In this document: positions 1 to 38,880 of the stretch, piece by piece
Position numbering within the stretch: the first letter of the stretch is position 1
How the letters are laid out: the number at the start of each line of letters is the position of its first letter
Source of the DNA: a virus
Direction: 5' to 3' (one strand)
DNA: 40,782 nucleotides
Virus record (IMG/VR): IMGVR_UViG_3300001242_000343
Span: 1 to 40,782 of that record
Position numbers and translations under genes: made by a program
Notes under the pieces: generated by a model
The model's input: the letters and a program-made list of their open reading frames with translations, nothing else
What the model was told of the DNA's origin: nothing
Databases searched by the model: none

Positions 1-186
1 GATCGACATAATTTTCATGATTTTTATCCGACCAGAGCGAAGACATTTGACCCGTATAAAAATCATATGCGCTGTTGGCCGTATATTGCAAGGGATGCGG
101 CAGAAGTTGGGTTGGAAATCATCAACGCAACACCGGACAGTGCAATAAAGGATTTTCCATTTATGAAGCTGGAGAAATTAATTTGA
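1..186 (+). CDS. C-terminal end of a DUF115/MptE-like protein (partial)
   Basis: Open frame from the window edge with 61 visible residues. It ends with a hydrophobic strand, then IINATPDSAI, then DFPFMKLEKLI. This tail resembles the end of DUF115 (6-hydroxymethylpterin pyrophosphokinase MptE-like) proteins, which end in a strand, an Asn-x-Thr-rich turn and a Pro-Met-Leu-Glu helix, and which often accompany glycan genes. The resemblance is from memory of the family and rests on a short tail, so the name is tentative. The stop overlaps the TTG start of the next gene by 4 nt (TTGA), which argues that this is a genuine translated gene end. The same DNA carries a ribosome binding site, GGAG at 171-174, for the downstream gene. 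Confidence 0.5.
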   Translation, partial: DRHNFHDFYPTRAKTFDPYKNHMRCWPYIARDAAEVGLEIINATPDSAIKDFPFMKLEKLI

Positions 187-1217
187 AAGCTGCAATACTT
201 ACAGAACTGAATCAGAATTTGGTTGTTGCGAATATATCTCTTCCGAATATTCTTGATGTTGGACAGGTACTTGTAAGGGTATTTGCTTCTGGTATTTGTG
301 GCGCTCAGATTGGGGAAATATCTGGGGCAAAAGGGCCAGATAAATATCTTCCCCATCTTCTCGGGCATGAAGGCGGTGGTATTGTAGAGAAAGTTGGTCC
401 TGGAGTAACAACTGTAAAAAATGGGGATCATGTTTGTTTGCATTGGCGAAAAGGAGAAGGGATTAATGCAATACCGCCAAAATATAAACTTGGGGCAGAA
501 ACTGTTGGTGGCGGTTGGGTAACAACATTTAATGAAATGGCCGTTGTTTCAGAGAATCGTTTAACAAAGGTGCCTTCTGCTCTTCCTTTTGAGATTTCGG
601 CCTTACTTGGATGTGCGGTTACAACAGGATTTGGTTTAATAAATAATGAAGCACAATTAAAGATTGGACAATCCATTGCTGTTGCTGGTTGTGGTGGTGT
701 TGGCCTTAATGTGATTCAAGGGGCAAAACTTGTTTGTGCTGATAAAATATTTGGTATTGATATTCATGATAGCAAACTTGAAATGGCAATGAGATTTGGT
801 GCAACTCATTTGATTAATTCCAGTATTGATCAAGAGTTTATTATTGACGAAATAAACAAATCTACAAGTGGAAAGGGTGTAGATGTATTTGTCGATTGTA
901 CCGGAGTCCCTGAAATTATTGATATGGGATTACATTTATCGAAGAAATTAATTCTTGTTGGTCAACCTAAGATTGGGGTTGATTATAAGATTTCCAATGC
1001 AAGAAATATGTATACCGGGAAAACAATAATTGATAGTCAAGGAGGGCTGACCAATCCAACTGTTGATATTCCTCGATATGCCGCACTTTATTTGAATGGG
1101 AAAATAAATCTTGAGGACTTGATTACCAGGAGATTTCCATTGAGTGAAGTAAACAAGGCAATTGAAATGGTTAAATCAGGAAAAGTTTGTCGTTGTATTC
1201 TGGAGATGAATCAATGA
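183..1217 (+). CDS. zinc-dependent medium-chain alcohol/polyol dehydrogenase
   Basis: A 344-residue MDR-family oxidoreductase that interconverts an alcohol and a carbonyl with NAD(P). The likely start is TTG 183, with GGAG 8 nt upstream, because the protein then begins MKAAILTELN as family members do; a longer frame from 75 overlaps the upstream gene. Catalytic-zinc ligands appear as Cys39 (SGICG), His62-Glu63 (GHEGGG) and Cys144 (LLGCAVTTG). The Rossmann turn is GCGGVG at 169-174, with Asp193 after the second strand, favouring NAD. The four structural-zinc cysteines of classical ADHs are absent. It sits with transketolase halves and an SDR, so the substrate is probably a sugar or sugar precursor (inference). 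Confidence 0.88.
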   Translation: MKAAILTELNQNLVVANISLPNILDVGQVLVRVFASGICGAQIGEISGAKGPDKYLPHLLGHEGGGIVEKVGPGVTTVKNGDHVCLHWRKGEGINAIPPKYKLGAETVGGGWVTTFNEMAVVSENRLTKVPSALPFEISALLGCAVTTGFGLINNEAQLKIGQSIAVAGCGGVGLNVIQGAKLVCADKIFGIDIHDSKLEMAMRFGATHLINSSIDQEFIIDEINKSTSGKGVDVFVDCTGVPEIIDMGLHLSKKLILVGQPKIGVDYKISNARNMYTGKTIIDSQGGLTNPTVDIPRYAALYLNGKINLEDLITRRFPLSEVNKAIEMVKSGKVCRCILEMNQ

Positions 1218-1960
1218 ATAATGTTGGCAAATTTCTGAAAGAATTACAACTGGTTGACATAGGATTGACCAAGATTAGGGTTGGTCCTGATCATGATGGT
1301 GGCTATGTTGTTTTGAAAGAAATCTGTGAACAATCAGATGCATTATATTCCTATGGGATCGGGGATGATGTTGAGTTCGAACTTGATTTATTGAATAGAT
1401 TTCTTAATATTCAGAAGGCATTTTTGTTTGACCCGACAATTGATGGATTACCTAAACAGAATGGGAGATTTGTATTTGTCAAAGAAGGAATTGAGAATTC
1501 GTTGAAATTTTTCAAATTCCATAAATCCCCAATGCTTAAAATTGATGTTGAATATAATGAGTGGGAAGCGTTAAACAAAATTGCCCCACTTGAATTATAT
1601 AGTGCTTCTCAAATTGTGATTGAATTTCATCTTGTTCATTGTGAACCAAGAGAAGGATTGACTAAATATTTCAATAGTTTTTATTCTGGTGTTTTTGAAA
1701 AGTTTAATGAGGAATTGTTTTCTGCTTATCTTGATATATTGAGAAAATTGAAGGATAGTTTTCATCTTGTCCATATCCATCCCAATAATTCACTTGGAAT
1801 GCGGGAAATGAATGGATATCTGGTTCCTCCGCTGTTGGAATGTACATTTGTCCATAAAAATTTGGTGGACAATTTTGTACCGGCTGAATATCAAGGGAGT
1901 GTCCAAGGGCTTGATTATCCTAACAAGAATGACCGTCCTGATGTGGGGTTTATATGTTGA
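1214..1960 (+). CDS. FkbM/METTL24-like SAM-dependent methyltransferase
   Basis: A 248-residue protein. The start is ATG 1214 (ATGA overlap with the dehydrogenase stop; GGAG at 1202-1205) rather than the upstream in-frame ATG. Diagnostic motifs of the METTL24/Methyltransf_21-24 group are present: DHDGGYV (26-32), SYGIGDD (46-52, the SAM loop), FDPT (72-75), LKIDVEYNEWEAL (108-120) and QIVIEFH (133-139). Relatives are thought to methylate sugars or other small molecules, often in polysaccharide clusters. The downstream HIHPNN and a C-terminal NKNDRPDVGF also fit the family. The acceptor is unknown; the surrounding genes suggest a sugar hydroxyl (inference). Confidence 0.75.
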   Translation: MNNVGKFLKELQLVDIGLTKIRVGPDHDGGYVVLKEICEQSDALYSYGIGDDVEFELDLLNRFLNIQKAFLFDPTIDGLPKQNGRFVFVKEGIENSLKFFKFHKSPMLKIDVEYNEWEALNKIAPLELYSASQIVIEFHLVHCEPREGLTKYFNSFYSGVFEKFNEELFSAYLDILRKLKDSFHLVHIHPNNSLGMREMNGYLVPPLLECTFVHKNLVDNFVPAEYQGSVQGLDYPNKNDRPDVGFIC

Positions 1961-2676
1961 ATGAAAGGTCAAAACAACTTCGCCGTGATACATTAAAACT
2001 TTCTACTGCAAACGGTGGGTATCATTATGGTGGTTGTTTTTCAATTGTTGAAATTTTAATTGCTCTTTATGATTTTTGTCTTAAAGAAGATGACAAGTTT
2101 GTATTGAGCAAGGGCCATGCTTGTTGGCCGCTCTATGTGATTCTTCAGGAACATGGGTTGAATCCGAAATTATCTGGACATCCTGAAAGAGATGTAGCAA
2201 ATGGCATAAATTATACAACAGGATCATTGGGCCATGGTTTTCCTGCTGCTGTTGGAATGGCATTTGCCAAAAAGATGAAAGGTGAATCAGGGAATGTTTA
2301 TGTTTTGATGGGTGATGGCGAGGCCCAGGAGGGTACGACTTGGGAATCAATGTTAATTGCCAAAAAACATAATCTTGATAATTTAATTGTAATTGTTGAT
2401 GAAAATAGAATTCAAGGTTCAGGCTGGAATCAAGATATTTTATCATTTAATTTGTATGAAGTAACAAATGCTCTTGGTTTTGATACTTGGATTGTTGATG
2501 GACATAATGTTGATCAATTGAGAAAGATAATTGAAGAACCTTGTAAAACAACTAAATTTATAATTGCCCAAACGACAAAGGGCAAAGGTGTTTCCTATAT
2601 GGAAAATGATCCTAAATGGCATGCCAATTGGCCTAATAAAGAATTTATGGATTTAGCTTTCGAGGAATTGAATTGA
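1954..2676 (+). CDS. transketolase N-terminal subunit (TPP-binding half)
   Basis: A 240-residue protein with the thiamine-diphosphate half of a transketolase. Visible motifs are LSKGHA (51-56), TTGSLGHG (88-95) and the TPP signature GDGEAQEG (120-127) ending at Asn151 in IVDEN. Split transketolases work as a two-subunit enzyme moving a two-carbon ketol unit between sugar phosphates. ATG 1954 overlaps the previous stop by 7 nt; TTG 1957 would restore the 4-nt overlap used at other junctions. The matching pyrimidine-binding half is at 3453-3935, separated by a sulfotransferase-like gene. Both halves are needed, because the active site forms between them (family knowledge). Confidence 0.92.
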   Translation: MLNERSKQLRRDTLKLSTANGGYHYGGCFSIVEILIALYDFCLKEDDKFVLSKGHACWPLYVILQEHGLNPKLSGHPERDVANGINYTTGSLGHGFPAAVGMAFAKKMKGESGNVYVLMGDGEAQEGTTWESMLIAKKHNLDNLIVIVDENRIQGSGWNQDILSFNLYEVTNALGFDTWIVDGHNVDQLRKIIEEPCKTTKFIIAQTTKGKGVSYMENDPKWHANWPNKEFMDLAFEELN

Positions 2677-3449
2677 AATTGAACGATATTATATTTGTTC
2701 CATCTGTTCAGCATACCGGAACTTGGTTTGTGATAAATTTTCTTTTGAATTTCTTTGAACAAGAAAAAGAACTTACTTTGTTGCTTGAAGATAGGAAGAA
2801 ATACGATGCAGAACATATTAATTATCAATACAAGTATGATTGCCCTCTTGATAAAAAAACAATTGCTCATATTCATTTACCGATAGTCCAGCAGGATAGT
2901 GGTCTTGATTTAATGGATGAACAATTTTATAATGGTTGGAAAAGTAATCTTGAGACAATGAGAAGTCTTCCGATTTCGACAATTTTATTGTTCTGTAATT
3001 TTTTTAAAACAGTTATTCCGGTGCGCGATCCATTGGCCGCAATATTGACAAGAGAAGTAAGGCATCCTCAATTCAGACATTTTTATATTATTGATAATTT
3101 TGTTGCATTGGCTACGGAATTTGTTCAACATCCGAATATTATGTTTTTACCTATTGATTTGAATTATTCATTTGAGCAACGAAAAGATTTATTATTGAAG
3201 GTATTAAATCATTGTGAAATTGATAATTTTGATGAAAGTATTGTCAATAAATATGCTGAAGAATGGATTCCACAAAATATAACACCGAATAATAAATTTA
3301 AAGAAATGTATGAGAATAAGGATATTGACGGGATAATGAATTTGTTGGGACAAAAACAAGCAAGTGTTAAGTATTTACAGAATATGGCATCAATTATTTT
3401 TCCATTTATGACTTCTTTTGGCTATACAAGAGAGAATTTTATTTGGTGA
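2673..3449 (+). CDS. sulfotransferase-like protein
   Basis: A 258-residue protein starting at TTG 2673 (TTGA overlap; GAGG at 2662-2665). The N-terminal strand-loop VPSVQHTGTWF (9-19) matches the 5'-phosphosulfate-binding loop of PAPS sulfotransferases. VIPVRDPLAAILTRE (114-128) matches the 3'-phosphate-binding strand and helix with its Arg-Asp-Pro. Such enzymes move sulfate from PAPS to hydroxyl groups of sugars or proteins. It lies between the two transketolase halves, so it is probably co-translated with the sugar genes. The acceptor cannot be read from sequence. Both nucleotide-binding motifs are recognisable, but overall similarity to characterised members looks low. Confidence 0.68.
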   Translation: MKLNDIIFVPSVQHTGTWFVINFLLNFFEQEKELTLLLEDRKKYDAEHINYQYKYDCPLDKKTIAHIHLPIVQQDSGLDLMDEQFYNGWKSNLETMRSLPISTILLFCNFFKTVIPVRDPLAAILTREVRHPQFRHFYIIDNFVALATEFVQHPNIMFLPIDLNYSFEQRKDLLLKVLNHCEIDNFDESIVNKYAEEWIPQNITPNNKFKEMYENKDIDGIMNLLGQKQASVKYLQNMASIIFPFMTSFGYTRENFIW

Positions 3450-3452
3450 TAT

Positions 3453-3935
3453 ATGAGAAGGGCGTTCGGTAAAACTATTGTAAGGCTTGGGGAGAAGGAT
3501 AAACGAATTGTCGTTCTTCACGGTGATGTATTTCAGGAAATGGATGAATTTCAGAGACGGTTTCCTGATCGGATTTACAACATGGGGATTTGTGAACAGT
3601 CCCTCCTTTCTGTAGCTGCTGGAATGGCTTGTGAAGGATTGAGGCCAATTGTTTATTCCTTGACTCCGTTCCTGATTGAAAGGCCATTTGAACAATTAAA
3701 GATTGATATTGATGAGCAGAATTTGCCAGTAATACTGGTTGGCAATTCTGACTATCCTACGCATGGGCCGACCCATAGGGCATTGAATCCCGAGGGGCTT
3801 ATTGGTTTGTTGAAAAATGTTCATGGTTTCTTTCCGAGAAATCAATTTGAGACCGAAAAGGCAATGCTTGATGCTTATTTGATGGGAGTTCCAGCGGTAA
3901 TTTGCTTGAAGAATGAGAGGCTGCCATTCATATGA
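3453..3935 (+). CDS. transketolase pyrimidine-binding subunit, short form
   Basis: A 160-residue protein matching the transketolase pyrimidine-binding domain. RIYNMGICEQSLLSVAAGMA (40-59) carries the catalytic Glu (Glu48) that activates the TPP aminopyrimidine. HGDVFQ near 23-28 matches the domain start. It should pair with the TPP half at 1954-2676. It stops after the Pyr domain: usual C-terminal subunits are about 300 residues and carry a further C-terminal domain, which is absent here. The frame ends cleanly with an ATGA overlap into the SDR gene, so this looks like a natural short form rather than a frameshift. The start ATG 3453 has only a weak Shine-Dalgarno and may depend on coupling. 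Confidence 0.85.
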   Translation: MRRAFGKTIVRLGEKDKRIVVLHGDVFQEMDEFQRRFPDRIYNMGICEQSLLSVAAGMACEGLRPIVYSLTPFLIERPFEQLKIDIDEQNLPVILVGNSDYPTHGPTHRALNPEGLIGLLKNVHGFFPRNQFETEKAMLDAYLMGVPAVICLKNERLPFI

Positions 3936-4579
3936 AAGTTATGATTACAGGTGCATCTCGGGGACTTGGAAAAGAACTTGTTAATGTATTTTCTGGCCAT
4001 GGGAATTATTTGATAATGAGTAATCGTAATGACATTTATGAATTGCATGAAGAAGGTGTTGTGGTAAGCGGGGATTTAACTCATCCCGCAACAATCAATA
4101 CATTATGTCATGAAGCAGAATTGGTTGATGGGATTGATATATTGATTAATTGTGCCGGGATTTATGCTAATGGGGAATTTAATCAAGCAGAACTTAAAAA
4201 AGTAATGGATGTAAATTTTTTCGCAACAGTCCTTCTGACTATGAAATTATTCCCGCTATTCCGCAGGCGGAATGGGGGCTGTATCGTTAATTTAAACTCT
4301 CTGGCTGGGGTAGTAGCCGGAAAGGGAGAAATGGCATACGCAGCCAGTAAACACGCCTTAAAAGGGTTCTTCGATTCTTTGAAATTTGAAGCCACAAAAT
4401 ACAATATAAAAATTTTGAATGTTTATTCCGGGGCAATGAAAACCGATATGACAAAGCATCGTCCTGACTGGGATAAACTTATTGACCCGAAAGAAGTTGC
4501 AAGAGTTATTTTTGATTTATGTCAAAATTATAAATCATTAAACATAAATGAGATTACAATTACCCGGAGCAATTATTAA
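3932..4579 (+). CDS. short-chain dehydrogenase/reductase (SDR)
   Basis: A 215-residue classical SDR. The cofactor loop is TGASRGLG (6-13), the NCAG motif is at 73-76, the catalytic Ser is in LNSLAG (Ser123), and the Tyr-x-x-x-Lys is Tyr136-Lys140 (YAASK). All catalytic parts are present, so it should be an active NAD(P)-dependent oxidoreductase. It overlaps the transketolase gene by 4 nt (ATGA at 3932) with GAGAGG upstream. With the MDR dehydrogenase and split transketolase it suggests a short pathway that builds an unusual sugar or polyol. That pathway is inferred from context only. Confidence 0.92.
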   Translation: MKVMITGASRGLGKELVNVFSGHGNYLIMSNRNDIYELHEEGVVVSGDLTHPATINTLCHEAELVDGIDILINCAGIYANGEFNQAELKKVMDVNFFATVLLTMKLFPLFRRRNGGCIVNLNSLAGVVAGKGEMAYAASKHALKGFFDSLKFEATKYNIKILNVYSGAMKTDMTKHRPDWDKLIDPKEVARVIFDLCQNYKSLNINEITITRSNY

Positions 4580-6955
4580 ATGAATGCATTAACCAAATGT
4601 ATTTGTAATAGTGACCGTTTCACAGAGCGGGAATCACAATATTATGAAGTGACCCCAGAAGGGGAAACTGTAATTGCTAAAAATGGATCAAGAATAAAAT
4701 TGGCCGAATGTCTTGATTGTGGGGTTATTCGACAGACAACTCTTCCTTTTGTTAAAACAGAATATAAGAAATATTATCAGGAATATCAGCCGGTAAATGA
4801 ACAATATAAGGCAAAAGATTATGATCATGACTTGAGAATTGCTAAATTACGGGCAAATGATTACGGAATTTATGGAGGTTGTGAACTTATTTTGCTTGAT
4901 GTTGGTTCCGGTTCCGGGGCGTTTGTAGATGAATGCCGGTCCAGGGGTGCGGCGGCTTATGGTTGTGAGATTTCCCAATATGCCTATGCCCCTACTGGGA
5001 ATTTTATTTATAATGGGATGTTGGAGGATATTGCATTCCCAACTGATCATTTTGATGTTGTAACGTGCCATGATGTATTAGAGCATTGTCTTGACCCGGT
5101 TTCTTTTATAAAGGAAATGTTCAGAATTACCAAACAGGGTGGAAAATGTATTATTGATTTTCCCAATTTTCATGTTGAGGCTGGAAAACATCATTGGAAG
5201 ATTGAACATATTTGGTATTTTAATACAGATCAATTAAAAGAATTGCTTGCAAAAACAGGATTTATAATCAGTGGAATAAAAAATCCAATTGAATCAAAAA
5301 TATTATTTACTTGTGCCAAACCAGAAGAAGATAGAAAAACAATTTTGCTCCCTCCTGGGATTGGGGACTCATATTGGTCCTTGATTAAATTACCGGCATT
5401 GATTGAAAGGGAAAATATTGGAATTCCTGAAATAGCAGTTGCTTGTAATAAAGAGAAAAAATACAACGGACACAAGAGGGCATTTCCTTTTATTGAAATG
5501 TTTCCTTTTGTTCATTCTTCCGGGTTCTCTCTTTCTACAGATGGGGAAAGTAATAAAAAAATCTGGAAAGAAGCGTATGCTCAAGAAGGAAGGACAATTT
5601 TCAGAGATGTTTTAAATTGTAATTATTTCGTTTCATATAATGGCCATTTACGAATTGGCAAAAGTATGAATGAGATTGATCCTGATTTGAAATGTTCCTG
5701 GAATCCGAAAATGTTTGTTTCTCTTGAACAACTTAATTTTCAGAAGATGTGTCAAGAACAATTTGGGAAATATATTGTTTTTTATTTTATTTTTGGTGGG
5801 ACTTATAGTTATTGGACGCAGCAATTCCCAATTAAGAATATTATTGGGTATATCAGGAAGGTATTGAATCGGACAGGATTGAAAGCAGTATTTACCGGAG
5901 CAATATGGGATGGTGATGATAATCCATTGAATGAAATAAAAAAGAATTTTCCTGACTCAATTGATCTTGTAGGGAAGACGACTGTTCAGCAATTGTTTGG
6001 ATTATTGAAAGGTTCAGAATTGGTTGTTGGTTATCCTTCCGGGTTGACAATTCTTTCTGCTTCGATGGGGATTAAAACCCTTACAATATGGAACGATTAT
6101 TATAATAGGGATTTTGCCTGGAATTGTGTTCAACCGGAAGTTTGGAATAAAACATATTTTACCGAAAATACAAATGGGATTAATGTTAATTCATTAACAA
6201 CTAAATCAATAGGAATAATCGAAGGGATTGCAAAACCTTCCAAACTTCCTTTGCCAACAGGAAAGAGGGAAGTTCAAACAAAGAAAAATGAAAAGGTTAT
6301 TAAATCTGTTGAATTAAAACGTTCTCCTTGTTTGACAATTGCTTGTGTCCTCAAATCTGGTGGGGATTATGACGAAAAATACGTCCAGATTATGAAACGA
6401 ATGATTGAAAAGACTGTAACAATTCCTTATAAGTTTTGTGTTTTAACTGATATGAATGTTAAGGATATTGAATTAATTATACTTAAAAAGAATTTTCCGG
6501 GTTGGTGGTCCAAACTTGAATTATTTTCTCTTTATGGTCCGGTACTTTATATTGATCTTGATACAGTAATTTTACATAATATTGATAAACTTGTAAATTC
6601 TGTATCAAGGATGGATAATGGTCAATTTTGGATGCTTCCTCCTTTTAATTCTTCCAGGAGGGAAAAGGGGATGTGGGCATCTGGGATAATGGCTTGGCAT
6701 GGGGATTTTAGATATTTAATTGATAAATTTGATCGTAAAAATTATGAGGGGTGGGATCAGGTTTATATTTCAAAGACACTTGAAAAACGAGGAGTTAAAA
6801 TTGAATCAATTGGCCGTTTTTCAAGAATAGCATCATACAAAAGGCATTGCTCAAGTACGAGTAATAAGCCAAATGAGTTTGATATTGTTTGTTTCCACGG
6901 GAGAGAGCGGCCACATACTTGCAAACATCAATGGGTCAAGGAGATTTGGGTATGA
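4580..6955 (+). CDS. three-domain fusion: methyltransferase, GT9-like and DXD glycosyltransferase
   Basis: A 791-residue protein. Residues 1-50 carry CxC (7,9) and CLDC (44-47), probably a zinc site. Residues 95-235 form a class I SAM methyltransferase with LDVGSGSGAF (106-115), DVVTCHDVLEH (159-169) and a post-II GGKCIIDFPN. Residues 254-555 resemble heptosyltransferase-type GT9 enzymes: LLPPGIGDS at 256-264 and a second Rossmann half with LVVGYPSGLTILSASMGI (481-498). After a charged linker, residues 583-791 form a GT-A-like glycosyltransferase with YIDLDTVI (657-664), the DXD metal site, then GMWASGIMAW and GWDQVYIS. One polypeptide therefore combines methyl transfer with two sugar-transfer activities. 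It abuts the SDR stop. Confidence 0.8.
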   Translation: MNALTKCICNSDRFTERESQYYEVTPEGETVIAKNGSRIKLAECLDCGVIRQTTLPFVKTEYKKYYQEYQPVNEQYKAKDYDHDLRIAKLRANDYGIYGGCELILLDVGSGSGAFVDECRSRGAAAYGCEISQYAYAPTGNFIYNGMLEDIAFPTDHFDVVTCHDVLEHCLDPVSFIKEMFRITKQGGKCIIDFPNFHVEAGKHHWKIEHIWYFNTDQLKELLAKTGFIISGIKNPIESKILFTCAKPEEDRKTILLPPGIGDSYWSLIKLPALIERENIGIPEIAVACNKEKKYNGHKRAFPFIEMFPFVHSSGFSLSTDGESNKKIWKEAYAQEGRTIFRDVLNCNYFVSYNGHLRIGKSMNEIDPDLKCSWNPKMFVSLEQLNFQKMCQEQFGKYIVFYFIFGGTYSYWTQQFPIKNIIGYIRKVLNRTGLKAVFTGAIWDGDDNPLNEIKKNFPDSIDLVGKTTVQQLFGLLKGSELVVGYPSGLTILSASMGIKTLTIWNDYYNRDFAWNCVQPEVWNKTYFTENTNGINVNSLTTKSIGIIEGIAKPSKLPLPTGKREVQTKKNEKVIKSVELKRSPCLTIACVLKSGGDYDEKYVQIMKRMIEKTVTIPYKFCVLTDMNVKDIELIILKKNFPGWWSKLELFSLYGPVLYIDLDTVILHNIDKLVNSVSRMDNGQFWMLPPFNSSRREKGMWASGIMAWHGDFRYLIDKFDRKNYEGWDQVYISKTLEKRGVKIESIGRFSRIASYKRHCSSTSNKPNEFDIVCFHGRERPHTCKHQWVKEIWV

Positions 6956-7626
6956 TTGATCCTATCCTTATAACCGGCGCTGCCCGTTCTGGAACAAGTA
7001 TGACCGCTGGGATTATTCATATTTGTGGTGGATTTGGCGGGGATACGGCAGGCCCGAATATTCATAATCAAAAGGGGATGTTTGAAAATCTTGAAATAAG
7101 AAATTCAATTACTAAACCATATTTGAAAAGCATTGGTTGTGACCCTTTAGGGCAAAGGCCATTACCTAATTCCCGGCAGGTTTTTGAGGTAACTCAACAG
7201 CAAGGAGAACAATGGAGAAAAAGGATACAATCAGTAATACAATATCAAGGATATAAGGACGGGATTTGGTATTACAAGGGGGCGAAGATGTGTTTGTTTT
7301 GGTATATGTGGCATCTTGCCTTTCCTGCTGCTAAATGGGTAATTGTAAGACGTGAAGCTGATCAAATTGCTGAATCTTGTTTGCGAACTTCTTTCATGCG
7401 TGCTTATAAGACAAAAGATGGCTGGTTGGATTGGGTAAAAGTTCATGAAGATAGATTCAGACAAATGAACAAGGCTGGTCTTGAAATTATGGAAGTTTGG
7501 CCCTCTAAAATAATTGCCGGGGATCAATTAGAGATGAAACAAATGATTGAATGGTTAGGGCTTGAATGGAAACAGAATCTTGTAAATGCCTTTGTTGATC
7601 CTGCTTTATATGGAGGTAAAAAATAA
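6952..7626 (+). CDS. sulfotransferase family protein (P-loop)
   Basis: A 224-residue protein. The start is ATG 6952, with an ATGA overlap on the fusion gene and AAGGAG at 6938-6943; an earlier in-frame ATG at 6889 lies inside the upstream gene. The N-terminus LITGAARSGTSMTAG (6-20) is the phosphosulfate-binding loop of a sulfotransferase group common in phages, and VIVRREADQIAES (130-142) provides the 3'-phosphate Arg. It is a different subfamily from the gene at 2673. It is the last gene of the sugar cassette and runs into the head-tail connector gene with a 1-nt overlap (TAATG). The substrate is unknown; glycan or virion sulfation is possible. Confidence 0.72.
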   Translation: MIDPILITGAARSGTSMTAGIIHICGGFGGDTAGPNIHNQKGMFENLEIRNSITKPYLKSIGCDPLGQRPLPNSRQVFEVTQQQGEQWRKRIQSVIQYQGYKDGIWYYKGAKMCLFWYMWHLAFPAAKWVIVRREADQIAESCLRTSFMRAYKTKDGWLDWVKVHEDRFRQMNKAGLEIMEVWPSKIIAGDQLEMKQMIEWLGLEWKQNLVNAFVDPALYGGKK

Positions 7627-8009
7627 TGGGCCGGGTTACTTCCGCAGAAGTTCGAGAAATAATTGATATTGATTCATCAATAACTGATATCACTCCATTT
7701 ATTACTGCTGGGAATTTGTTGGTAACAAATGCATTTTCCGGGGATACGCAAGTTGGTGATGCAACATTAAAAGAAATTGAACGATATATTGTTGCTCATA
7801 TTATTTGTTCCAGGGATCAGAGAACAATAGAGGAATGGGCAGGCGGTAATGAGGGGGTAAGGGTGAAATATATGGGCCAGTTCGGAAAAGGTCTTGAATC
7901 TACTCCTTATGGGCAGAATGCATTGCTTTTGGATTTTACTGGCAGATTGGCGGCTCTTGGTAGAAAACGGGCAAGTATCGGAATGATTGATTATTCGACG
8001 GATGTATAA
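7626..8009 (+). CDS. head-tail connector/adaptor protein
   Basis: A 127-residue, largely helical protein with a C-terminal stretch in which ALLLDFTGRLAALGR is the most conserved-looking part. Size and position, immediately before the head-closure, HK97-gp10-like and tail-terminator genes, match the gp6/gp15-type adaptor that docks on the portal. GGAGG lies upstream of ATG 7626. The assignment rests on gene order and size more than on motifs. The gene follows the sulfotransferase with a 1-nt overlap, tying the sugar cassette to the structural operon. Confidence 0.6.
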   Translation: MGRVTSAEVREIIDIDSSITDITPFITAGNLLVTNAFSGDTQVGDATLKEIERYIVAHIICSRDQRTIEEWAGGNEGVRVKYMGQFGKGLESTPYGQNALLLDFTGRLAALGRKRASIGMIDYSTDV

Positions 8010-8360
8010 ATGAACAATCGAGTAAGAAAAAATCTGTTGAGACAAACCGCTGTTTATTGGGGTTCTCCGGTAAATGATGGGTATGGAGGAAAGACGTTTG
8101 CTGCCCCTGTAGAAGTTGAATGTCGTTGGATGGTTAAACAGGAAAAGATTGTATTACAGAATATGGAAGAAGTTCTTTCAAAGGCTGTTGTTGCATTGAG
8201 TGATGATGTTGAAGTTGGGGGGAGATTGGCCTTGACTGATCTTGATAATTTGAATAGTTCCCAACTTCCTGAAGATGAAGAGTCTTTTGAAATTATGAAA
8301 TTCTCGAAGAATCCTGATCCGAAAGCAAATGTTTTTGTAAGGACTGCGTGGCTGATATGA
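8010..8360 (+). CDS. head closure (stopper) protein
   Basis: A 116-residue protein. It begins with a short basic helix followed by AVYWGSPVNDGYGG and CRWM, a pattern of the SPP1 gp16-like head-completion family (antiparallel beta barrel after a short N-terminal arm). It lies directly between the adaptor and the HK97-gp10-like gene, which is the usual order. The protein would close the connector after packaging and provide the surface for tail docking. It ends with an ATGA overlap into the next gene. Confidence 0.65.
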   Translation: MNNRVRKNLLRQTAVYWGSPVNDGYGGKTFAAPVEVECRWMVKQEKIVLQNMEEVLSKAVVALSDDVEVGGRLALTDLDNLNSSQLPEDEESFEIMKFSKNPDPKANVFVRTAWLI

Positions 8361-8767
8361 GCTTGAATCTTACCGGATTAGACAAAGTGTTGCAAAATCT
8401 CAATCGAGAAGTGAAAGCAATTGAAAATAGAACGCAGAAAGGATTAATGACTGCTGGTTTACTCGTAAAACGAGAAGCACAGTTGAAAACCCCTGTTGAT
8501 ATTGGAAATTTGAAGGCATCCGCTTATGTTGATCCAATTCATGACTCCATGGGGAGACTTGGTGTCGAAATTGGATATACCGCTTTTTATGCTCCTTTTG
8601 TTCATGAGGCATCTGGGAAATTGAAGGGATTACCAAGGCCAAGGCCACATAAGGGGAGATTTTGGGATCCACAGGGAAGGGCTGAACCGCAGTTTTTACG
8701 AAATGCATTATATCAAAATGCAGATAAGATTTTATCAATAATTGCCGAGGATGCAAAAATTAGATGA
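8357..8767 (+). CDS. HK97 gp10-like tail completion protein
   Basis: A 136-residue protein with the HK97-gp10 layout: MSLNLTGLDKVLQNL at the start, a helix LMTAGLLVKREAQLKTPVDIGNL (about 47-70), then the beta part IGYTAFYAPFVHEA with its Tyr-x-x-Phe-Val-His-Glu motif, and a C-terminal helix. Homologues complete the neck or tail. ATG 8357 gives a 4-nt overlap with the upstream stop; GTG 8348 is an alternative with AAGGA only 4 nt away. It overlaps the tail terminator gene by 4 nt at its end. Confidence 0.85.
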   Translation: MSLNLTGLDKVLQNLNREVKAIENRTQKGLMTAGLLVKREAQLKTPVDIGNLKASAYVDPIHDSMGRLGVEIGYTAFYAPFVHEASGKLKGLPRPRPHKGRFWDPQGRAEPQFLRNALYQNADKILSIIAEDAKIR

Positions 8768-9156
8768 ACTCAGTTGCCGAAGATATAAAAGACATTCTTG
8801 AAGATGATTCTATTGGGTCATTAGGGACTGATATTTTTATTGGTATGATGCCCGAACTTCCCGATTCTTGTATTTGTTTGTCTGATAATCAGGGATTAGG
8901 AAAACCAGAATCAAGATATGAGTGGGATTATACCGGGGTGCAGGCTTTAATTAGAGGGGTAGAAGGTGGCTATCAGGCTGTGTACGCGAAAGCCGTAGCC
9001 GTTAAGGTATCTCTCCATGGACTGGTAAATGAAACGGTAAATTCAGCGATTTATAAGATGATTCAGGCGGGCCATGATCCGCTTTACCTGGGAGTCGATA
9101 ATAAAAACCGGCCAATGTTTTCAATTAATTTTGAAATTCAAAGAACATCGGCCTAA
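8764..9156 (+). CDS. tail terminator / minor capsid-type protein
   Basis: A 130-residue protein. The opening helix MNSVAEDIKDILEDD, a strand with DIFIGMMPELPDSCICL, a long beta hairpin and the end PMFSINFEIQRTSA match the tail-terminator/minor-capsid family (DUF3168- and gp17-like), which caps the finished tail tube. Its place just before the major tail protein is the canonical one. ATGA overlap at 8764. Family membership is judged from the fold pattern and position. Confidence 0.7.
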   Translation: MNSVAEDIKDILEDDSIGSLGTDIFIGMMPELPDSCICLSDNQGLGKPESRYEWDYTGVQALIRGVEGGYQAVYAKAVAVKVSLHGLVNETVNSAIYKMIQAGHDPLYLGVDNKNRPMFSINFEIQRTSA

Positions 9157-9176
9157 CAAAACAGGAGGACAATGAT

Positions 9177-9596
9177 ATGTCTGTAAGTGCAGTTGTAAGC
9201 AAGGGGACAGTTTTTAAAAGAGGCGATGGGGCAAGCAATGAAGTGTTTGCTACCTTGACGGAAATTAATAGTGTTGGGCTGCCTTCACAGTCCCGGCCCA
9301 TGATTGATGTTACCGATCTTTCCAGTACAGCAAGAGAGTTTATCCCTGGCTTACTGGATTCTGGACAGGTAACAATCAATATGAATTTTACCCGCAATAC
9401 TTATATTGCGATGCGGGCGGATTTACTTTCTGATAGTTCGGTAAATTATCAGATTGTTTTGCCTGATGCAAGTAATACGACTATTGATTTTGCCGGGTAT
9501 GTTCAGGATATGGGCGGTAATGTTCCTGGACCGGATGAAAAGATTGCTGTTGATGTTACTTTTAAAATTACTGGCTCGATTACTGTAAGCTCTTAA
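9177..9596 (+). CDS. major tail tube protein
   Basis: A 139-residue beta-rich protein. GTVFKRGDG, FATLTEINSVGLPSQSRPMIDVTDL and EFIPGLLDSGQVTINMNF are characteristic of siphovirus major tail proteins, and the C-terminus KIAVDVTFKITGSI fits the tube fold. A strong AGGAGG lies upstream of ATG 9177, in keeping with high expression. The G/GT chaperone genes follow. No Ig-like C-terminal domain is present. Confidence 0.88.
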   Translation: MSVSAVVSKGTVFKRGDGASNEVFATLTEINSVGLPSQSRPMIDVTDLSSTAREFIPGLLDSGQVTINMNFTRNTYIAMRADLLSDSSVNYQIVLPDASNTTIDFAGYVQDMGGNVPGPDEKIAVDVTFKITGSITVSS

Positions 9597-17883: not shown

Positions 17884-18387
17884 ATGAAAAAGTTTATTGT
17901 TGTATTATTTGCATTATTGTTTTACGGGAATGTTTTTGCCGCTGGAACTTGTACAGAAACAGATTGGGAAGTTGTCAAAGATTATCGGGGAAATAAAGTT
18001 GGAACAGTTCTGACTATTCTTTGCACTCATCATACTGATAATTCTCTTTCTGCCCCTTTGGCCTCGAATGGTGATGAATCTGCAATGCAGAAATTGTCAG
18101 GACAATATATTTATAAAATCAAATATATTCCTTCTTCTCCTGCTCCAACTGATGAAACTGATTTGATCATTACTGATTCCGATGGACTTTCCTTACTTGG
18201 GGCAAATGGAACGAATTTTATTGATGAAACAACGAAACAGGAAACATTGGGCAAAAATACATTTCTTGGTATTTCAACCTATTTGTGGCCGGTATATTCT
18301 GAAATTTGGACAATATCAACTACTGGCAATGCTGTTTCTGGTTCAAAATTTTATTTGAAGTTTTATGGATTGTATGCGGATAGATAA
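17884..18387 (+). CDS. exported protein of unknown function
   Basis: A 167-residue protein with an apparent Sec signal peptide (MKKFIVVLFALLFYGNVFA, cleavage near Ala19). The mature part is beta-rich and begins with two cysteines (Cys23 in GTCTE and Cys42 in LTILCTHH). It has the Ser/Thr-rich texture of a fibre-associated or receptor-like domain. Its first 62 nt parallel the first 62 nt of the next fibre gene. An exported product encoded among tail-fibre genes is unusual. No known family is recognised. Confidence 0.65.
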   Translation: MKKFIVVLFALLFYGNVFAAGTCTETDWEVVKDYRGNKVGTVLTILCTHHTDNSLSAPLASNGDESAMQKLSGQYIYKIKYIPSSPAPTDETDLIITDSDGLSLLGANGTNFIDETTKQETLGKNTFLGISTYLWPVYSEIWTISTTGNAVSGSKFYLKFYGLYADR

Positions 18388-18396
18388 AAATAAAAT

Positions 18397-18425
18397 TTAG
18401 AAATATAAGAGTTTTAGGATATAAT
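18397..18425 (+). promoter_or_regulatory. possible sigma70-type promoter before the fibre gene
   Basis: A perfect TATAAT lies at 18420-18425, 17 nt after a weak TTAGAA at 18397-18402, within the AT-rich gap between the two exported-protein genes. A strong AGGAGG (18441-18446) follows. The -35 match is poor and AT-rich DNA gives chance hits, so this is only a candidate. Confidence 0.25.
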
Positions 18426-18456
18426 AAAGCAGAATATAAAAGGAGGTTGATAAATT

Positions 18457-20565
18457 GTGAAAAAATTAATAGTTGTTTTATTTATATTATTTTATTATTC
18501 AATCGTGATGGCCGCTGGGCCACCAGCCATCCCTCCCCCCTGCCGCGCCCCCATCCCCTACAACGCGGAGTCCTGGCAGGCGCAATATGCAAACTGCTAC
18601 GCTCCGGCTACCGCAGTTGCGGCAAAGATCGAAACCCTTGCCGGTGGTCACGATGCGGTAACTCTCGCCGCCAGCCTGACTGACATTTTTGGTATCTCAG
18701 CGGGTCAGGAGTTGAGCGCGGATGTGCAGGTGGCGAATTATGTGCTTGCCGGGCCGACCTCCGGGGCAGCCGCCGCGCCTACTTTCAGGGCTTTGGTGGC
18801 TGATGATATTCCGGACTTGTCGGGGACGTATGAGCCTGCCGGGATTACCGAGTCAGATATTTCCGATCTTGGGGCGTATCTCACTGCTGAAACTGATCCA
18901 ACAGCCTTGCTCACTGCAGGAACCGATAACGTCAAAGACACGCATGTTGATTGGGGCTCCGGTGCTGGGCAGGTAAATCTTGCCGATATCCCTGGGGGGA
19001 CCGCGCCGGCCAATGCCTTCGATTTTGCATCTGCCACATGGCGGCTTCCTGCAGCCAATGCGGACCCAACCGCGACCGCCGGGTATCTTGTCCATGACAC
19101 GACAGTGACCAATCATGCGCACGGTGCAGTCAGGTGGCATGACGGTACGAATATCCGGCAGGCTGTGGATATGGTAGCGGCAACGGCTGAAGGATGTACA
19201 GACGATCAGGTCGTAGCCTACGATGCCGACGCAGATTTGTTTTACTGCAAGGCCGAAGCTGCTGGGGCTGGTGATTTCCTGGCAGACGGCTCGGTTGCCA
19301 TGACAGGCGCCCCCGTCCCCAACGCCGCAAACACCATTGCACTCGGCTCCGCAACGGTAGAATGGGCTGATGTCTTCTTCGGTGACGGCGCGGTGATATC
19401 CGGGCAGAATGACCAGAGCGCAACACTTACCTCTTCCGCCTCCCTGTGGACCGCGAACAACTTTGCAGTTGACACACAGTTCAAGTTGCCTTCGTCCAAC
19501 GCTGACGTAACGGCTACAGCTGGGTATACCAGGCACGACTCGACTGTAACCAATTTTACCGGCGGTGCGTTGAGATACTACAACGGGGCGGCGACTAAAC
19601 AACTGCTCGACATGACCGCTGCAACGGCTGAGGGTTGCACTGATGACTATGTCGTGGCCTATGACGCCGATGCTGATCTTTGGTACTGCAAGGCCGATGG
19701 TGGTGCCGGGGCGTTTACCGCTGCAGTGACAACCGCTATTACCCCGACAACACCTATCGTGCTGGACGAAGCAACGGGGGACGAAAAGGCTTTGAATTTG
19801 TCGTATACAACGAATAAGGCGACAAGTGGAGCTGACTACGGACTGTATATCAACCAAACCGATACATCATCCCCTGGTACATCATATTTGATTTGGTCTG
19901 GAAAGGATGGAACGTCAAGATTTAATGTATCAAATGCTGGTGATTCCGTTATTTCGGGGGGCCTTACGACCGCTGGATTTGTTGGGCCACTAATAAAACA
20001 TGGATCAAATAATAGCACTCTGGCTATTAACGGGACCAATACATACAACAATACGGATAACGGAGTCGAATTTTTTGGAGGATCAGGGCATACACTAACG
20101 CAAGGGACCGGCGAGACCTTTAATGGTGTAGCAATACTCCCAATATATAACCAGACTGATACTGCCGGGGCTAATGATTTGTTTATCAACCGGACAGAAA
20201 CAGCCATTGGTACTGGCGAGCATAACATTGTTAATTTACAGGTTGGTGGTACTCCGCAACTTAGGATAACAAATAAATCGCACATTGTATCATCTGGGGC
20301 TGATCCGGCTGTATCGTCGTGCGGGACATCTCCGACAATCACAGGTTCAGATACATCAGGGATTGTAACAGTTGGCGGAGGGGGCGCGGTTACTGCATGC
20401 ACAGTAACTTTCGCGTCTGCATTTACAGCTGAACCGTCATGCATAGTTATTCCTCAAGCTAACGTAACATCATACTTATCAGCATCGTCAACCTCCGCAA
20501 TAACAGTTACATTTTCTGGCGATATACAAAGTGGAAAATTCAATTATTTATGCGTTGGGTTATGA
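18457..20565 (+). CDS. repeat-containing tail fibre protein with signal peptide-like N-terminus
   Basis: A 702-residue protein starting at GTG 18457, with AGGAGG at 18441-18446. Residues 1-20 look like a signal peptide (KKLIVVLFILFYYSIVMA, then AGPP). The body shows tail-fibre texture (ALVADDIPDLSGTY, then a collagen-free beta-rich shaft) and two copies of a domain of about 85 residues ending DADADL(F/W)YCKA. The C-terminal 100 residues, with CGTSPTITGSDTSGIVTVGGGG and SAITVTFSGDI, match the beta-sandwich tip of many phage fibres. Base composition jumps to GC-rich right after the signal-coding part. It ends in the same frame as the SGNH gene. Confidence 0.8.
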   Translation: MKKLIVVLFILFYYSIVMAAGPPAIPPPCRAPIPYNAESWQAQYANCYAPATAVAAKIETLAGGHDAVTLAASLTDIFGISAGQELSADVQVANYVLAGPTSGAAAAPTFRALVADDIPDLSGTYEPAGITESDISDLGAYLTAETDPTALLTAGTDNVKDTHVDWGSGAGQVNLADIPGGTAPANAFDFASATWRLPAANADPTATAGYLVHDTTVTNHAHGAVRWHDGTNIRQAVDMVAATAEGCTDDQVVAYDADADLFYCKAEAAGAGDFLADGSVAMTGAPVPNAANTIALGSATVEWADVFFGDGAVISGQNDQSATLTSSASLWTANNFAVDTQFKLPSSNADVTATAGYTRHDSTVTNFTGGALRYYNGAATKQLLDMTAATAEGCTDDYVVAYDADADLWYCKADGGAGAFTAAVTTAITPTTPIVLDEATGDEKALNLSYTTNKATSGADYGLYINQTDTSSPGTSYLIWSGKDGTSRFNVSNAGDSVISGGLTTAGFVGPLIKHGSNNSTLAINGTNTYNNTDNGVEFFGGSGHTLTQGTGETFNGVAILPIYNQTDTAGANDLFINRTETAIGTGEHNIVNLQVGGTPQLRITNKSHIVSSGADPAVSSCGTSPTITGSDTSGIVTVGGGGAVTACTVTFASAFTAEPSCIVIPQANVTSYLSASSTSAITVTFSGDIQSGKFNYLCVGL
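19021..19260 (+). repeat. fibre domain repeat, copy 1
   Basis: Encodes about 80 residues, from DFASATWRLPAANAD through TATAGYLVHDTTVTN and TAEGCTDDQVVAYDADADL to FYCKAEA. Copy 2 at 19444-19701 shares most of these positions, but the DNA differs at many third codon positions, so the duplication is not recent. Confidence 0.85.
19444..19701 (+). repeat. fibre domain repeat, copy 2
   Basis: Second copy of the domain in the fibre: WTANNFAVDTQFKLPSSNAD, TATAGYTRHDSTVTN, then TAEGCTDDYVVAYDADADL and WYCKADG. The conserved Cys pair (in EGCTDD and YCKA) may form a disulfide in each copy. Confidence 0.85.
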
Positions 20566-20583
20566 GATACATGCTATATACCC

Positions 20584-21159
20584 GTGGTCACGGAGAATAT
20601 AGTTATGGCCGGGGATAGCAAAACAGACGCTACCTGGCCTAATTCGTGGCCGAGTGATCTTGATGCTGCTGTAAACGTTGAAGAAGAAACAGGCTGGACA
20701 CATTTTAACATCGGGATTTCTGGTGCTACTGTTGCCAGTTTTCTTGCTGTGATAGATGACAAAATCGCCGAAATAGACGATCCTGAGAATACTAAAAAAA
20801 TATTAATTAATTTTGGGGTAAACGATCAAGCGAGTATTGATTTTGACAATGCTGGTGAAGTTGCGGTATGGGTATCTGACTATGAAAGTCTTATAGACCA
20901 ACTGGCTACTGTATGCCCAAACGCTGATTTTTATTTGAGCCGACCGTGGGCACGAATAGGAACAGAGTGGAATCAAATAGCGGCGGCAATAGGCACCATT
21001 GTATCTGATCGTCCGTTGATAGCACATTTGGGAGATGATGAGCGAGTATGGCTTGAGGGCGGGGATGATGGGGCAACGATGACTACAGATGGAACGCATT
21101 ATAGCGCAGCGGGACAGGCCGAAAAGACTGCTCAGATGATGACGGTGCTGGGGTATTAA
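20584..21159 (+). CDS. SGNH/GDSL hydrolase (probable tail-associated esterase)
   Basis: A 191-residue enzyme with all four SGNH blocks: AGDSKTD (nucleophile Ser12), NIGISGAT (block II Gly), INFGVND (block III Asn80) and DGTHYSAAG (Asp169, His172). Family members hydrolyse esters or acetyl groups, often on surface polysaccharides. In phages they act as fibre-borne deacetylases. The likely start is GTG 20584, with no good Shine-Dalgarno, only 18 nt after the fibre stop and in the same frame; translation may be coupled, or the pair may be a split fibre-esterase. No signal peptide is seen. Confidence 0.82.
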   Translation: MVTENIVMAGDSKTDATWPNSWPSDLDAAVNVEEETGWTHFNIGISGATVASFLAVIDDKIAEIDDPENTKKILINFGVNDQASIDFDNAGEVAVWVSDYESLIDQLATVCPNADFYLSRPWARIGTEWNQIAAAIGTIVSDRPLIAHLGDDERVWLEGGDDGATMTTDGTHYSAAGQAEKTAQMMTVLGY

Positions 21160-21161
21160 CA

Positions 21162-21743
21162 ATGACCACCTGGGATAAATGGGCAATAGCCGTAATTCTC
21201 GCCCTCCTCCTGACGCTTGCTGTCCAGGCTCATGGCACCGTGATCGAAGGGGCCTACGAGGGCTGCACCTGGGAGTGGCACCCGTGGGCAATGAACGCAG
21301 CTTTCTGGGATGCGCCCGATCAGTTCTACGAGATCGCACATGGTGGGCCGCAGCTTATCACCCCGCTGTGCAGCAGACCGGATATCACCCCGGACCAGCT
21401 TACCGGGTACCGACTGGGATTCTTCGCGAGCTGCGACGGGATGTGCTCGGTTGCTGATGGGACTTTTGCGGAGTCGGCAGATGAATCGGTTGGCTACTGC
21501 AATATGTCTGAGTCGGAGTGCGGCGAGTGCTGGCCGCAAACAGTAGCTTGGCAGGATACTTTTTACCGAGAGATGAGCAACGGCGCAGGGGCACAAGCAG
21601 CATTTGACGCGGCGATGAACGCGGTACCGGCCTGTCTGCCATGTTTGAGATATCACAAAAAGCGGGTACCGGAGCAGGTGAACGAAACTCAGGTTGTACT
21701 GGCTACGGTAATTATTCCGTGGCTGATGCGGGGGAGAGAATGA
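21162..21743 (+). CDS. Cys-rich protein with N-terminal signal/anchor
   Basis: A 193-residue protein. The N-terminal hydrophobic stretch (WAIAVILALLLTLAVQAHG) is a signal peptide or anchor. The rest is rich in Cys and Trp: CTWEWHPWAMN, FFASCDGMCS, GYCNMSESECGECWPQ and ACLPCLRYH. A second hydrophobic stretch near the end (VVLATVIIPWLM) may be a membrane segment. GC-rich codons match the surrounding module. The cysteines would suit periplasmic disulfides. No family is recognised. It ends with an ATGA overlap into the zinc-ribbon gene. Confidence 0.65.
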   Translation: MTTWDKWAIAVILALLLTLAVQAHGTVIEGAYEGCTWEWHPWAMNAAFWDAPDQFYEIAHGGPQLITPLCSRPDITPDQLTGYRLGFFASCDGMCSVADGTFAESADESVGYCNMSESECGECWPQTVAWQDTFYREMSNGAGAQAAFDAAMNAVPACLPCLRYHKKRVPEQVNETQVVLATVIIPWLMRGRE

Positions 21744-21937
21744 AAATCAAACTCAGCGGCAAGGTTAAAAGTCCCCTCGGATCATGCCCGTACTGCAAGA
21801 AGCAGATTGTCGGAGAGCAGTTTATCAAGACCGCGACCGAGAAGAAGATGATCGGGCCGTGCCCGAACTGCGGGGAGCTGCTGCGGTATTATATCATCAA
21901 TCCTCACGTTTTTGTGAAGTATAAGGAGAAAAAATGA
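21740..21937 (+). CDS. small zinc-ribbon protein
   Basis: A 65-residue protein starting at ATG 21740 (ATGA overlap with the previous stop, GGGGAGAGA upstream). Two Cys pairs, CPYC (near 16-19) and CPNC (near 41-44), form a typical zinc ribbon, followed by a short beta tail and a basic end. Probably cytoplasmic. Function unknown. It overlaps the next gene by 4 nt. Confidence 0.65.
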   Translation: MKIKLSGKVKSPLGSCPYCKKQIVGEQFIKTATEKKMIGPCPNCGELLRYYIINPHVFVKYKEKK

Positions 21938-22719: not shown

Positions 22720-22913
22720 TGGTCAAAATGAAAAAATGCCCGTGGTGCAAAGCAGAGCCGGAACCGCTTGGGGAAATAGCATTTGCCATAAACCACAAAC
22801 CGGACTGCTTCCTATCGCTGAACAACCAGGAATGGAATATCAACGAGGACGAAGGGGCGCGGATGATTGTGCAAAGGTATGACGTTAAAATTTGGAACAG
22901 GAGGGGCTTATGA
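22719..22913 (+). CDS. Lar-like restriction alleviation family protein
   Basis: A 64-residue protein starting at ATG 22719 (1-nt overlap, TGATG); ATG 22728 is also possible. The N-terminal CPWC and a later Cys (KPDC), followed by a C-terminal motif ending in IWNRRG, match the small Lar-type zinc proteins (CPFCG at the start, WNRR at the end). Rac Lar reduces EcoKI restriction, but many phage members are uncharacterised. The usual second Cys pair is incomplete here, which lowers confidence. ATGA overlap into the next gene. Confidence 0.55.
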   Translation: MVKMKKCPWCKAEPEPLGEIAFAINHKPDCFLSLNNQEWNINEDEGARMIVQRYDVKIWNRRGL

Positions 22914-23128
22914 GATACCTGATACTGATTGCGGTGATGATGCTGGCCGGGTGCGCAAACTCAAGCCGAAACCTGACGATTCATGTTCACGAAGGCGGGA
23001 CATTTATGATCTGCCACAGTCCGTTTTCTACGGAGGTCATGAAGTCGAACACCGACGAGCGGGCGACGAATACCCCTGACATCAAACCGGAAGTTACCAT
23101 TCCACTGGTTCCGGGAGGTGGGCTATGA
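22910..23128 (+). CDS. small lipoprotein, possible outer-membrane spanin
   Basis: A 72-residue protein starting at ATG 22910 (ATGA overlap, AGGAGGGG upstream). The N-terminus MRYLILIAVMMLAGCANSS is a lipoprotein signal with lipobox LAGC, so Cys15 should be lipidated and the rest lie in the periplasm. The mature part is short and Pro-containing at its end (IPLVPGGG). Its place before a holin-like gene is consistent with an Rz1-like o-spanin, but no Rz family match is evident. Confidence 0.65.
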   Translation: MRYLILIAVMMLAGCANSSRNLTIHVHEGGTFMICHSPFSTEVMKSNTDERATNTPDIKPEVTIPLVPGGGL

Positions 23129-23325: not shown

Positions 23326-23327
23326 TC

Positions 23328-23980: not shown

Positions 23981-24000
23981 TCCGGGCAAAGGGAATAAAA

Positions 24001-37393: not shown

Positions 37394-37401
37394 AAATTTC
37401 C

Positions 37402-38501: not shown

Positions 38502-38502
38502 T

Positions 38503-38868: not shown

Positions 38869-38880
38869 TTAAATCACCAT

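Follow-up and report, generated by a model that had tools for sequence, protein, structure and literature searches.

Location of the island

The window analyzed here is the complete IMG/VR virus record IMGVR_UViG_3300001242_000343, 40,782 bases in length. Its positions 1-7626 hold, on the + strand, the end of one gene (g1) and eight complete genes (g2 to g9), followed by the genes of the head-tail connectors. This stretch is likely to represent the larger part of one variant of a conserved island for virion glycosylation. The island lies between the gene of the major capsid protein (MCP) and the first connector gene, and its product would be a glycan carried by the particle.

A transketolase search among viral contigs recovered the same phage twice (contigs L002 and L003, each 100% identical over 9.2-9.6 kb), along with two further relatives, L004 and L005, which are ~96% identical at the protein level and also contain the cassette. 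L003 is 66.6 kb long and, combined with the window, accounts for almost the entire genome: it continues past the left end of the window, and its other end matches window positions 37384-40782 and beyond. Upstream of the window, the gene order in L003 is terminase, KdsB, portal, MuF-like protein, protease, decoration-like protein, MCP, a small gene (h7) and the complete g1. The cassette is located exactly between the capsid genes and the connectors and overlaps with both. Its extent in the window was given correctly in an earlier, preliminary description; however, the partial gene encodes the last part of a protein of 209 aa, and upstream of the window the cassette extends as far as the capsid genes. 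The same description named an assembly chimera of phage and host DNA as a possible artifact. Nothing was found in favor of this, and the identical arrangement in the independent contigs L002 and L003, in the 96% relatives and in many distant phages makes it practically negligible.

Gene calls and family matches bear out the eight genes and partial ninth of the preliminary description, as well as its account of their coupling. The junctions g1/g2, g2/g3, g4/g5, g6/g7 and g8/g9 are 4-nt overlaps (ATGA or TTGA), g7/g8 reads TAAATG, and the cassette runs into the connector operon at g9/c10 with a 1-nt overlap (TAATG), as the h7/g1 junction does in L003. The AT-rich codons shared with the connectors are also confirmed, GC content at third codon positions being 0.23-0.40 in g2-g9 and 0.29-0.34 in the connectors. 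Because these co-oriented genes overlap head genes at both ends, their products should be made late, together with the capsid. Elsewhere in the window, overall GC content is 0.44-0.55 across the tail-tip/lysis region (18001-26000), against 0.31-0.43 in the rest.

Conservation of the slot across capsid relatives

Viral contigs were searched with MCP alignments only, in order to avoid bias towards glycan genes, and 150 loci were read. Grouping 140 MCPs at 90% identity yielded 89 clusters, and the contents of the slot (i.e., the region between the MCP gene and the first connector) were counted per cluster wherever the region was visible, the final counts being made with domain profiles. In 77 of 78 clusters g1 is found at most three genes after the MCP gene (L246 is the exception), and in 44 of 48 g9 is found at most three genes before the connector. 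A g8-type glycosyltransferase is within the slot in 38 of 48 clusters. The transketolase set, present in only 4 of 48, was rejected as the system's core. Slot length ranges from 1.0 to 9.8 kb (median 5.5 kb), and three loci (L204, L217 and L316) have g1 alone. The sampled contents of the other slots are of the glycan type: hexapeptide transferase, FkbM methyltransferase, NAD epimerase, GT2, GT11, DxD glycosyltransferase and radical SAM proteins. The window shows one of the fillings that this conserved slot can have: its bookends are fixed, and the sugar-making middle varies.

The preliminary description had suggested searching related phages for the same cassette at the capsid/connector boundary. 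The slot and its bookends are conserved there, yet the transketolase set mostly is not. That description overlooked the Maf/sialyltransferase-like gene g1, the KdsB gene, and that the transketolase set is one interchangeable filling.

Among the cassette-bearing phages, distances between island proteins were compared with distances between MCPs. The Mantel correlation is 0.89 for g9, 0.86 for g1, 0.85 for g8, 0.83 for g2, 0.75 for g3, 0.74 for g7 and 0.71 for g6, while the connector yields 0.85 (p ~0.0005 in permutations for these proteins). These correlated distances indicate that, for the most part, the island has long accompanied the capsid and was not inserted recently.

The features of the island and of the adjacent connector genes are presented in Table 1. 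In the related locus L123, two extra large unannotated genes (447 and 638 aa) lie between g9 and c10.

Table 1. Genes of the island and of the adjacent connector region (window coordinates).
Feature	Position	Strand	Description	Matches
g1	1..186	+	Partial: last 61 aa of a sialyltransferase/Maf-like glycosyltransferase (209 aa in full); forms the left bookend	
g2	183..1217	+	Zinc-dependent MDR alcohol dehydrogenase	PF00107 (ADH_zinc_N) E 8e-19; PF08240 (ADH_N) E 3e-15; phrog_2640 E 2e-78
g3	1214..1960	+	S-adenosylmethionine (SAM)-methyltransferase-fold protein, distantly like Methyltransf_21/22	Weak Pfam E 0.01-0.02; predicted structure
g4	1954..2676	+	Transketolase N (thiamine diphosphate (ThDP)-binding) subunit	PF00456 (Transketolase_N) E 2e-25
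g5	2673..3449	+	Sulfotransferase-fold protein between the transketolase halves	Motifs; predicted structure
g6	3453..3935	+	Transketolase pyrimidine-binding subunit without C-terminal domain	PF02779 (Transket_pyr) E 2e-18
g7	3932..4579	+	Short-chain dehydrogenase/reductase (SDR)	PF00106 (adh_short) E 4e-39
g8	4580..6955	+	Three-domain fusion: methyltransferase, GT9 (heptosyltransferase-like), DxD glycosyltransferase	PF13489; PF01075; phrog_1962
g9	6952..7626	+	3'-phosphoadenosine 5'-phosphosulfate (PAPS)-type sulfotransferase; right bookend of the island	Sulfotransfer_3 (PF13469)
c10	7626..8009	+	First head-tail connector, closes the slot; homologs come after the island in relatives	
c11-c14	8010..9596	+	Stopper-like, HK97 gp10-like, tail terminator, major tail protein	PF04883; PF12691; PF16460

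Sulfotransferases, methyltransferases and glycosyltransferases

The oxidoreductases (g2 and g7), methyltransferases (g3 and g8) and glycosyltransferase domains (g8) named in the preliminary description agree with Pfam, PHROG and structure matches, and both of its sulfotransferase-like proteins are recovered, g9 by PF13469 and g5 by predicted fold. The g9 protein scores 28.3 bits against a cut-off of 27.0 (E 3e-6), its A-R-S-G-T-S loop and R...S motif are kept in 15 relatives, and it has a single weak match among PDB sequences (E 0.025). Genes coding for adenosine 5'-phosphosulfate (APS)-kinase-like proteins adjoin g9 in some islands (4 of 48 clusters).

Neither g3 nor g5 reaches the cut-off of any Pfam family. 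AlphaFold models of both were built from alignments of relatives (pLDDT 82 for g3 and 81 for g5). The top listed Foldseek hits of the g5 model are all PAPS sulfotransferases, with probabilities of 0.91-1.00, a best E of 1.4e-3, and low TM scores (0.3-0.45). Together with the motif pattern HTGTW...RDP, this suggests a sulfotransferase-like fold for g5, which is predicted to transfer sulfate from PAPS. The g3 model matches SAM methyltransferases, with 48 PDB hits at E<1e-3; a search of the PDB with the g3 sequence gave nothing credible. Among cultured phages, neither g3 nor g9 has a match. In g8, Methyltransf_23 (PF13489) matches with E 1e-18, Glyco_transf_9 (PF01075) with E 2e-5, and the C-terminal glycosyltransferase phrog_1962 with E 4e-25.

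The g1 protein, whose gene is complete in L003 (7604-8233), matches phrog_4603, an "alpha-2,3-sialyltransferase", with E 6e-5, and 7 of 10 members of its family match PF01973 (MptE-like/Maf_flag10) at E<=0.01, the best at 7e-7. The eight bacterial genomes searched for PF01973 members, for use in profile comparison, contained none. Maf_flag10 resembles CstII (GT42), and Maf flagellin glycosyltransferases transfer Kdo (3-deoxy-D-manno-octulosonic acid) from CMP-Kdo to Ser/Thr of proteins (PMC11339370). Differently from Maf enzymes, g1 is a stand-alone protein without the other Maf domains. A possible source of such a donor is also encoded by this phage: the CMP-Kdo synthetase KdsB lies at L003 738-1469, ~7.3 kb upstream of window position 1, overlaps the terminase and portal genes by 4 nt, and is above the curated cut-off (TIGR00466, 193.5 vs 155.2 bits).

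Transketolase and the predicted sugar

The split transketolase of the preliminary description is indeed present as two halves, g4 and g6, although g5 interrupts them and the C-terminal transketolase domain is absent, g6 being 160 aa long with Transket_pyr only. The best PDB matches of both subunits are to the two-gene transketolase of Carboxydothermus hydrogenoformans (6yak, E 4e-60 for g4; 6yaj, E 8e-22 for g6), from which the phage proteins differ in the missing domain, in phosphate-site residues, and in forming their own clade. The E. coli TktA residues that we take to be catalytic or to bind ThDP/Mg (H26, H66, H100, D155, N185, E411 and H473) are all conserved in 8 viral pairs. Those that presumably contact the sugar phosphate are not kept: H461 is replaced by V/I and R520 by N/R/K, R358/S385 are unaligned, and the presumed specificity residue D469 is replaced by H. 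The conserved catalytic and ThDP residues, combined with the loss of His461, the change of Asp469 to His and the missing C-terminal domain, suggest g4 and g6 are probably active on a non-classical substrate.

In a tree of the N (TKN) and pyrimidine-binding (TKC) subunits, one clade (100/100 support) unites 27 phage sequences with five from contigs assigned to cells, apart from 45 other cellular sequences. The five comprise three Pelagibacteraceae contigs, one of Ignavibacteriales, and one binned in a metagenome-assembled genome of Methanocellales. In the latter (L031), which groups with the phage sequences, a MuF-like phage gene adjoins SDR-ADH-TKN-TKC (ADH, alcohol dehydrogenase), and the contig is probably a misbinned or integrated phage. 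No close transketolase was found in cultured phages, the best being 39%.

The best guess for the island's sugar is a heptose-related one. In the Pelagibacter contig L028, the ADH, transketolase, SDR and g3 genes occur with GmhA, the HldE kinase (HldE-I), the HldE nucleotidyltransferase (HldE-II), HldD and a GT9-like gene, i.e., most of the ADP-heptose route (GmhB was not seen in it). The HldE kinase is also present in some phage islands, and g8 has a GT9 domain; these pairings are what points to heptose.

Related gene sets were also observed in other contexts. Phage-like contigs (L006-L013, L017, L141-L148 and L153-L156), some longer than 100 kb and with near-identical copies in several metagenomes, contain SDR-ADH-TKN-TKC(-g3-HldE) away from these capsid genes, along with a cupin and many glycosyltransferases. 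Cellular relatives of the split transketolase in Anaerolineales (L036, L044, L073 and L075) and Chlorobiaceae (L050-L066) lie in conserved operons that also encode two other proteins, an unknown one of 545-557 aa and one of 221 aa.

Comparison with known systems

In the mycobacteriophage Che8 and its relatives, phage-encoded glycosyltransferases place glycans, with a presumed shield function, on capsid and tail-tube subunits (Freeman et al. 2023 as cited in PMC12619734 and PMC11256854). There, however, the glycosyltransferase genes of the Che8 relative Maravista are near the 3' end of the genome rather than in the head operon, and the portions of these articles available to us describe no sulfotransferase, KdsB, transketolase or Maf-like gene.

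Coliphage P1 pmgO (L254, 79592-80254) is a g1 homolog with 26% identity (tblastn E 6e-9). It is among the "putative morphogenetic" genes downstream of a late promoter, with ppp and the glycosyltransferase gene pmgQ just downstream, and pmgO and pmgQ are probably an unrecognised glycosylation pair. Unlike the island, P1 has no sulfotransferase and pmgO is not beside the capsid gene; a P1 virion glycan is not mentioned in the parts of the literature consulted. Deletion and CRISPRi studies found pmgO, pmgP and pmgQ to be dispensable (PMC9024508, PMC10695390).

Homologs of g1 also follow capsid or adaptor genes in D3-like Pseudomonas phages (PP9W2, PMG1, PAJU2 and FBPa47), in Psp6 and in Tetraselmis viridis virus S20. 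They are directly behind the capsid gene in PP9W2, FBPa47 and Psp6, and behind the head-tail adaptor in PAJU2; a glycosyltransferase and a methyltransferase are nearby in PP9W2, and S20 has a multi-gene glycan run between its head genes and the head closure protein Hc1. In contrast with the island, these phages have different capsid families, smaller sets and no annotated sulfotransferase. In PP9W2 (L250 5837-6388), Psp6 (L252) and FBPa47 (L253), the g1 homology reaches upstream of the annotated start, and the annotated open reading frames (ORFs) look truncated. Jumbo Caulobacter phages (L249, Caulobacter phage CcrSC 118481-122967) have a g1 homolog between their tail genes and the endolysin, accompanied by a methyltransferase and by unknown genes, possibly a second kind of virion-gene-linked glycan run.

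Proposed pathway and alternatives

If the island acts on the virion, g2, g4, g6 and g7 would produce an unusual, probably heptose-related sugar. The g1 protein would place the first sugar on Ser/Thr of the capsid or of a neighboring head protein. Its donor would be a CMP-sugar; for this phage CMP-Kdo is plausible, supplied by the KdsB whose gene separates terminase from portal. Elongation of the glycan would then fall to the two glycosyltransferase domains of g8 (GT9 and DxD), and the glycan would be methylated by g3 and by the methyltransferase domain of g8, and sulfated from PAPS by g9 and g5, sometimes with the help of the phage APS-kinase-like protein in relatives. The end product would be a charged, methylated and sulfated glycan on the particle. 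The bookends (g1 at one side; the g8-type glycosyltransferase and g9 at the other) would be inherited with the capsid, whereas lineages would swap the sugar-making middle, so that the coat differs from phage to phage.

A host-surface polysaccharide normally requires membrane proteins for its export or assembly. None of 315 slot proteins (>=90 aa, from 44 complete slots) has at least two membrane-like segments, while the same rule selects 45 of 816 proteins (5.5%) in cellular polysaccharide-type loci with related transketolases. Multi-membrane proteins are also absent from an 18-kb section of the phage that lies beyond the window and the L003 locus. Their absence speaks for an acceptor in the cytoplasm, and position and co-inheritance would make the virion the obvious one. 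It also bears on the reading in which the island modifies the surface of the infected cell (lipopolysaccharide (LPS), capsule or exopolysaccharide, blocking superinfection or changing a receptor) and uses the late operon for expression only. This reading has some basis, given ADH, transketolase, SDR and g3 genes are also found in cellular loci of the polysaccharide type that contain ADP-heptose genes (L028 and L029), as well as in large phage-like contigs rich in glycan genes (L006, L011 and L017), and given KdsB, GT9 and heptose chemistry are reminiscent of the LPS inner core. Yet neither the slot proteins nor the 18 kb beyond include a flippase, a polymerase or a GtrA/GtrB/GtrC-like multi-membrane protein, the traits of O-antigen or serotype conversion (gtrABC, wzx/wzy). 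Six related records contain no integrase (control genomes were positive), so nothing points to lysogenic conversion; a phage would gain little from changing the cell surface late in lytic growth, and minimal slots keep g1 alone. We therefore regard cell-surface modification as unlikely, and its lysogenic form, O-antigen conversion, was rejected for the lack of an integrase in the six records and of multi-membrane proteins in the slots and the 18-kb section.

It is more doubtful still that the slot is simply an insertion hot spot whose host-derived genes have no functional tie to the virion. In cyanophages, a hyperplastic region reportedly noted by Millard et al. in 2009 has variable host-like metabolic genes between structural genes, and to our knowledge its contents are not flanked on either side by conserved genes for a glycosyltransferase and a sulfotransferase. 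The slot's middle does vary in content and in size, so co-location could reflect such a hot spot; nevertheless, both ends are fixed and co-diverge with the capsid, and the sampled contents are of the glycan type. Glycosylation or other hypermodification of the phage DNA is highly improbable. DNA-decorating phage glycosyltransferases are known (Pyle 2024 as cited in PMC12619734; Shewanella phage Thanatos, PMC12838424), but the island's genes are with head genes rather than replication genes, and DNA glycosylation was rejected since no member of the thymidylate synthase/hydroxymethylase family (PF00303) was found in the six related records, with control genomes again positive. Moreover, we know of no role for sulfotransferases in DNA hypermodification. 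The preference of the preliminary description for virion glycosylation over host-surface modification is thus supported by the fixed ends, the co-divergence (all proteins but one at r 0.71-0.89), and the absence of multi-membrane proteins, integrase and the thymidylate synthase family, with the glycan itself being what we infer.

Several points weigh against virion glycosylation. That late-expressed cytoplasmic enzymes glycosylate and sulfate virion proteins is a reconstruction in which glycan, sulfate and acceptor residue are all deduced. The identification of g1 as a Maf/CstII-like transferase draws on PHROG naming, motif resemblance and Pfam matches below threshold (two g1 proteins score 22.6 and 23.3 bits for PF01973 against a cut-off of 34.6), its sequence has no match in the PDB, and its donor and acceptor are guesses. 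The GT9 match of g8 is weak. KdsB is between terminase and portal in just 4 of the 28 capsid clusters with that site visible, so Kdo cannot be a general donor supplied by the phage; priming with Kdo is attractive but not general, the CMP-sugar donor and protein Ser/Thr acceptor being suggested by the neighboring KdsB and capsid genes. TKN tracks the capsid more weakly than the other proteins (r 0.45, p 0.04), and the closest cultured phages by MCP (MaInes and Hardycor1, 29-32% identity) have no annotated island. Finally, the 80 loci per scan are best matches rather than a random sample, and the contigs are metagenomic, with some frame-broken ORFs.

Broader significance

Phage virion glycosylation is already known, while sulfation and the slot architecture appear new. 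Literature on phage transketolase, phage sulfotransferase and KdsB yielded nothing on this arrangement, and the phrases "phage-encoded sulfotransferase" and "sulfated capsid" were not found among the matches listed. The island combines ordinary parts in an unusual arrangement, and probably serves a form of phage virion glycosylation in which sulfation is likely and the locus is fixed in place but exchangeable in content. A bolder and rather tentative proposal is that the whole phage family coats its capsids with a phage-made sulfated glycan, combining Maf-like priming (with Kdo or another CMP-sugar), heptose-like sugars and a sulfotransferase cap, with the chemistry exchanged at one fixed slot as in bacterial capsule types.

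Under this bolder proposal, phages would gain two novelties, sulfated glycans on the virion and a virion "serotype" locus open to exchange. If virion glycosylation by the island is correct, exchangeable sulfated sugar coats encoded at a fixed place next to the capsid gene would matter for adsorption and stability, as well as for how host or immune systems recognize the particle. It would also provide a function for the widespread "alpha-2,3-sialyltransferase" family found beside capsid genes, with P1 pmgO and the D3 relatives among its members, for which laboratory phages allow testing.

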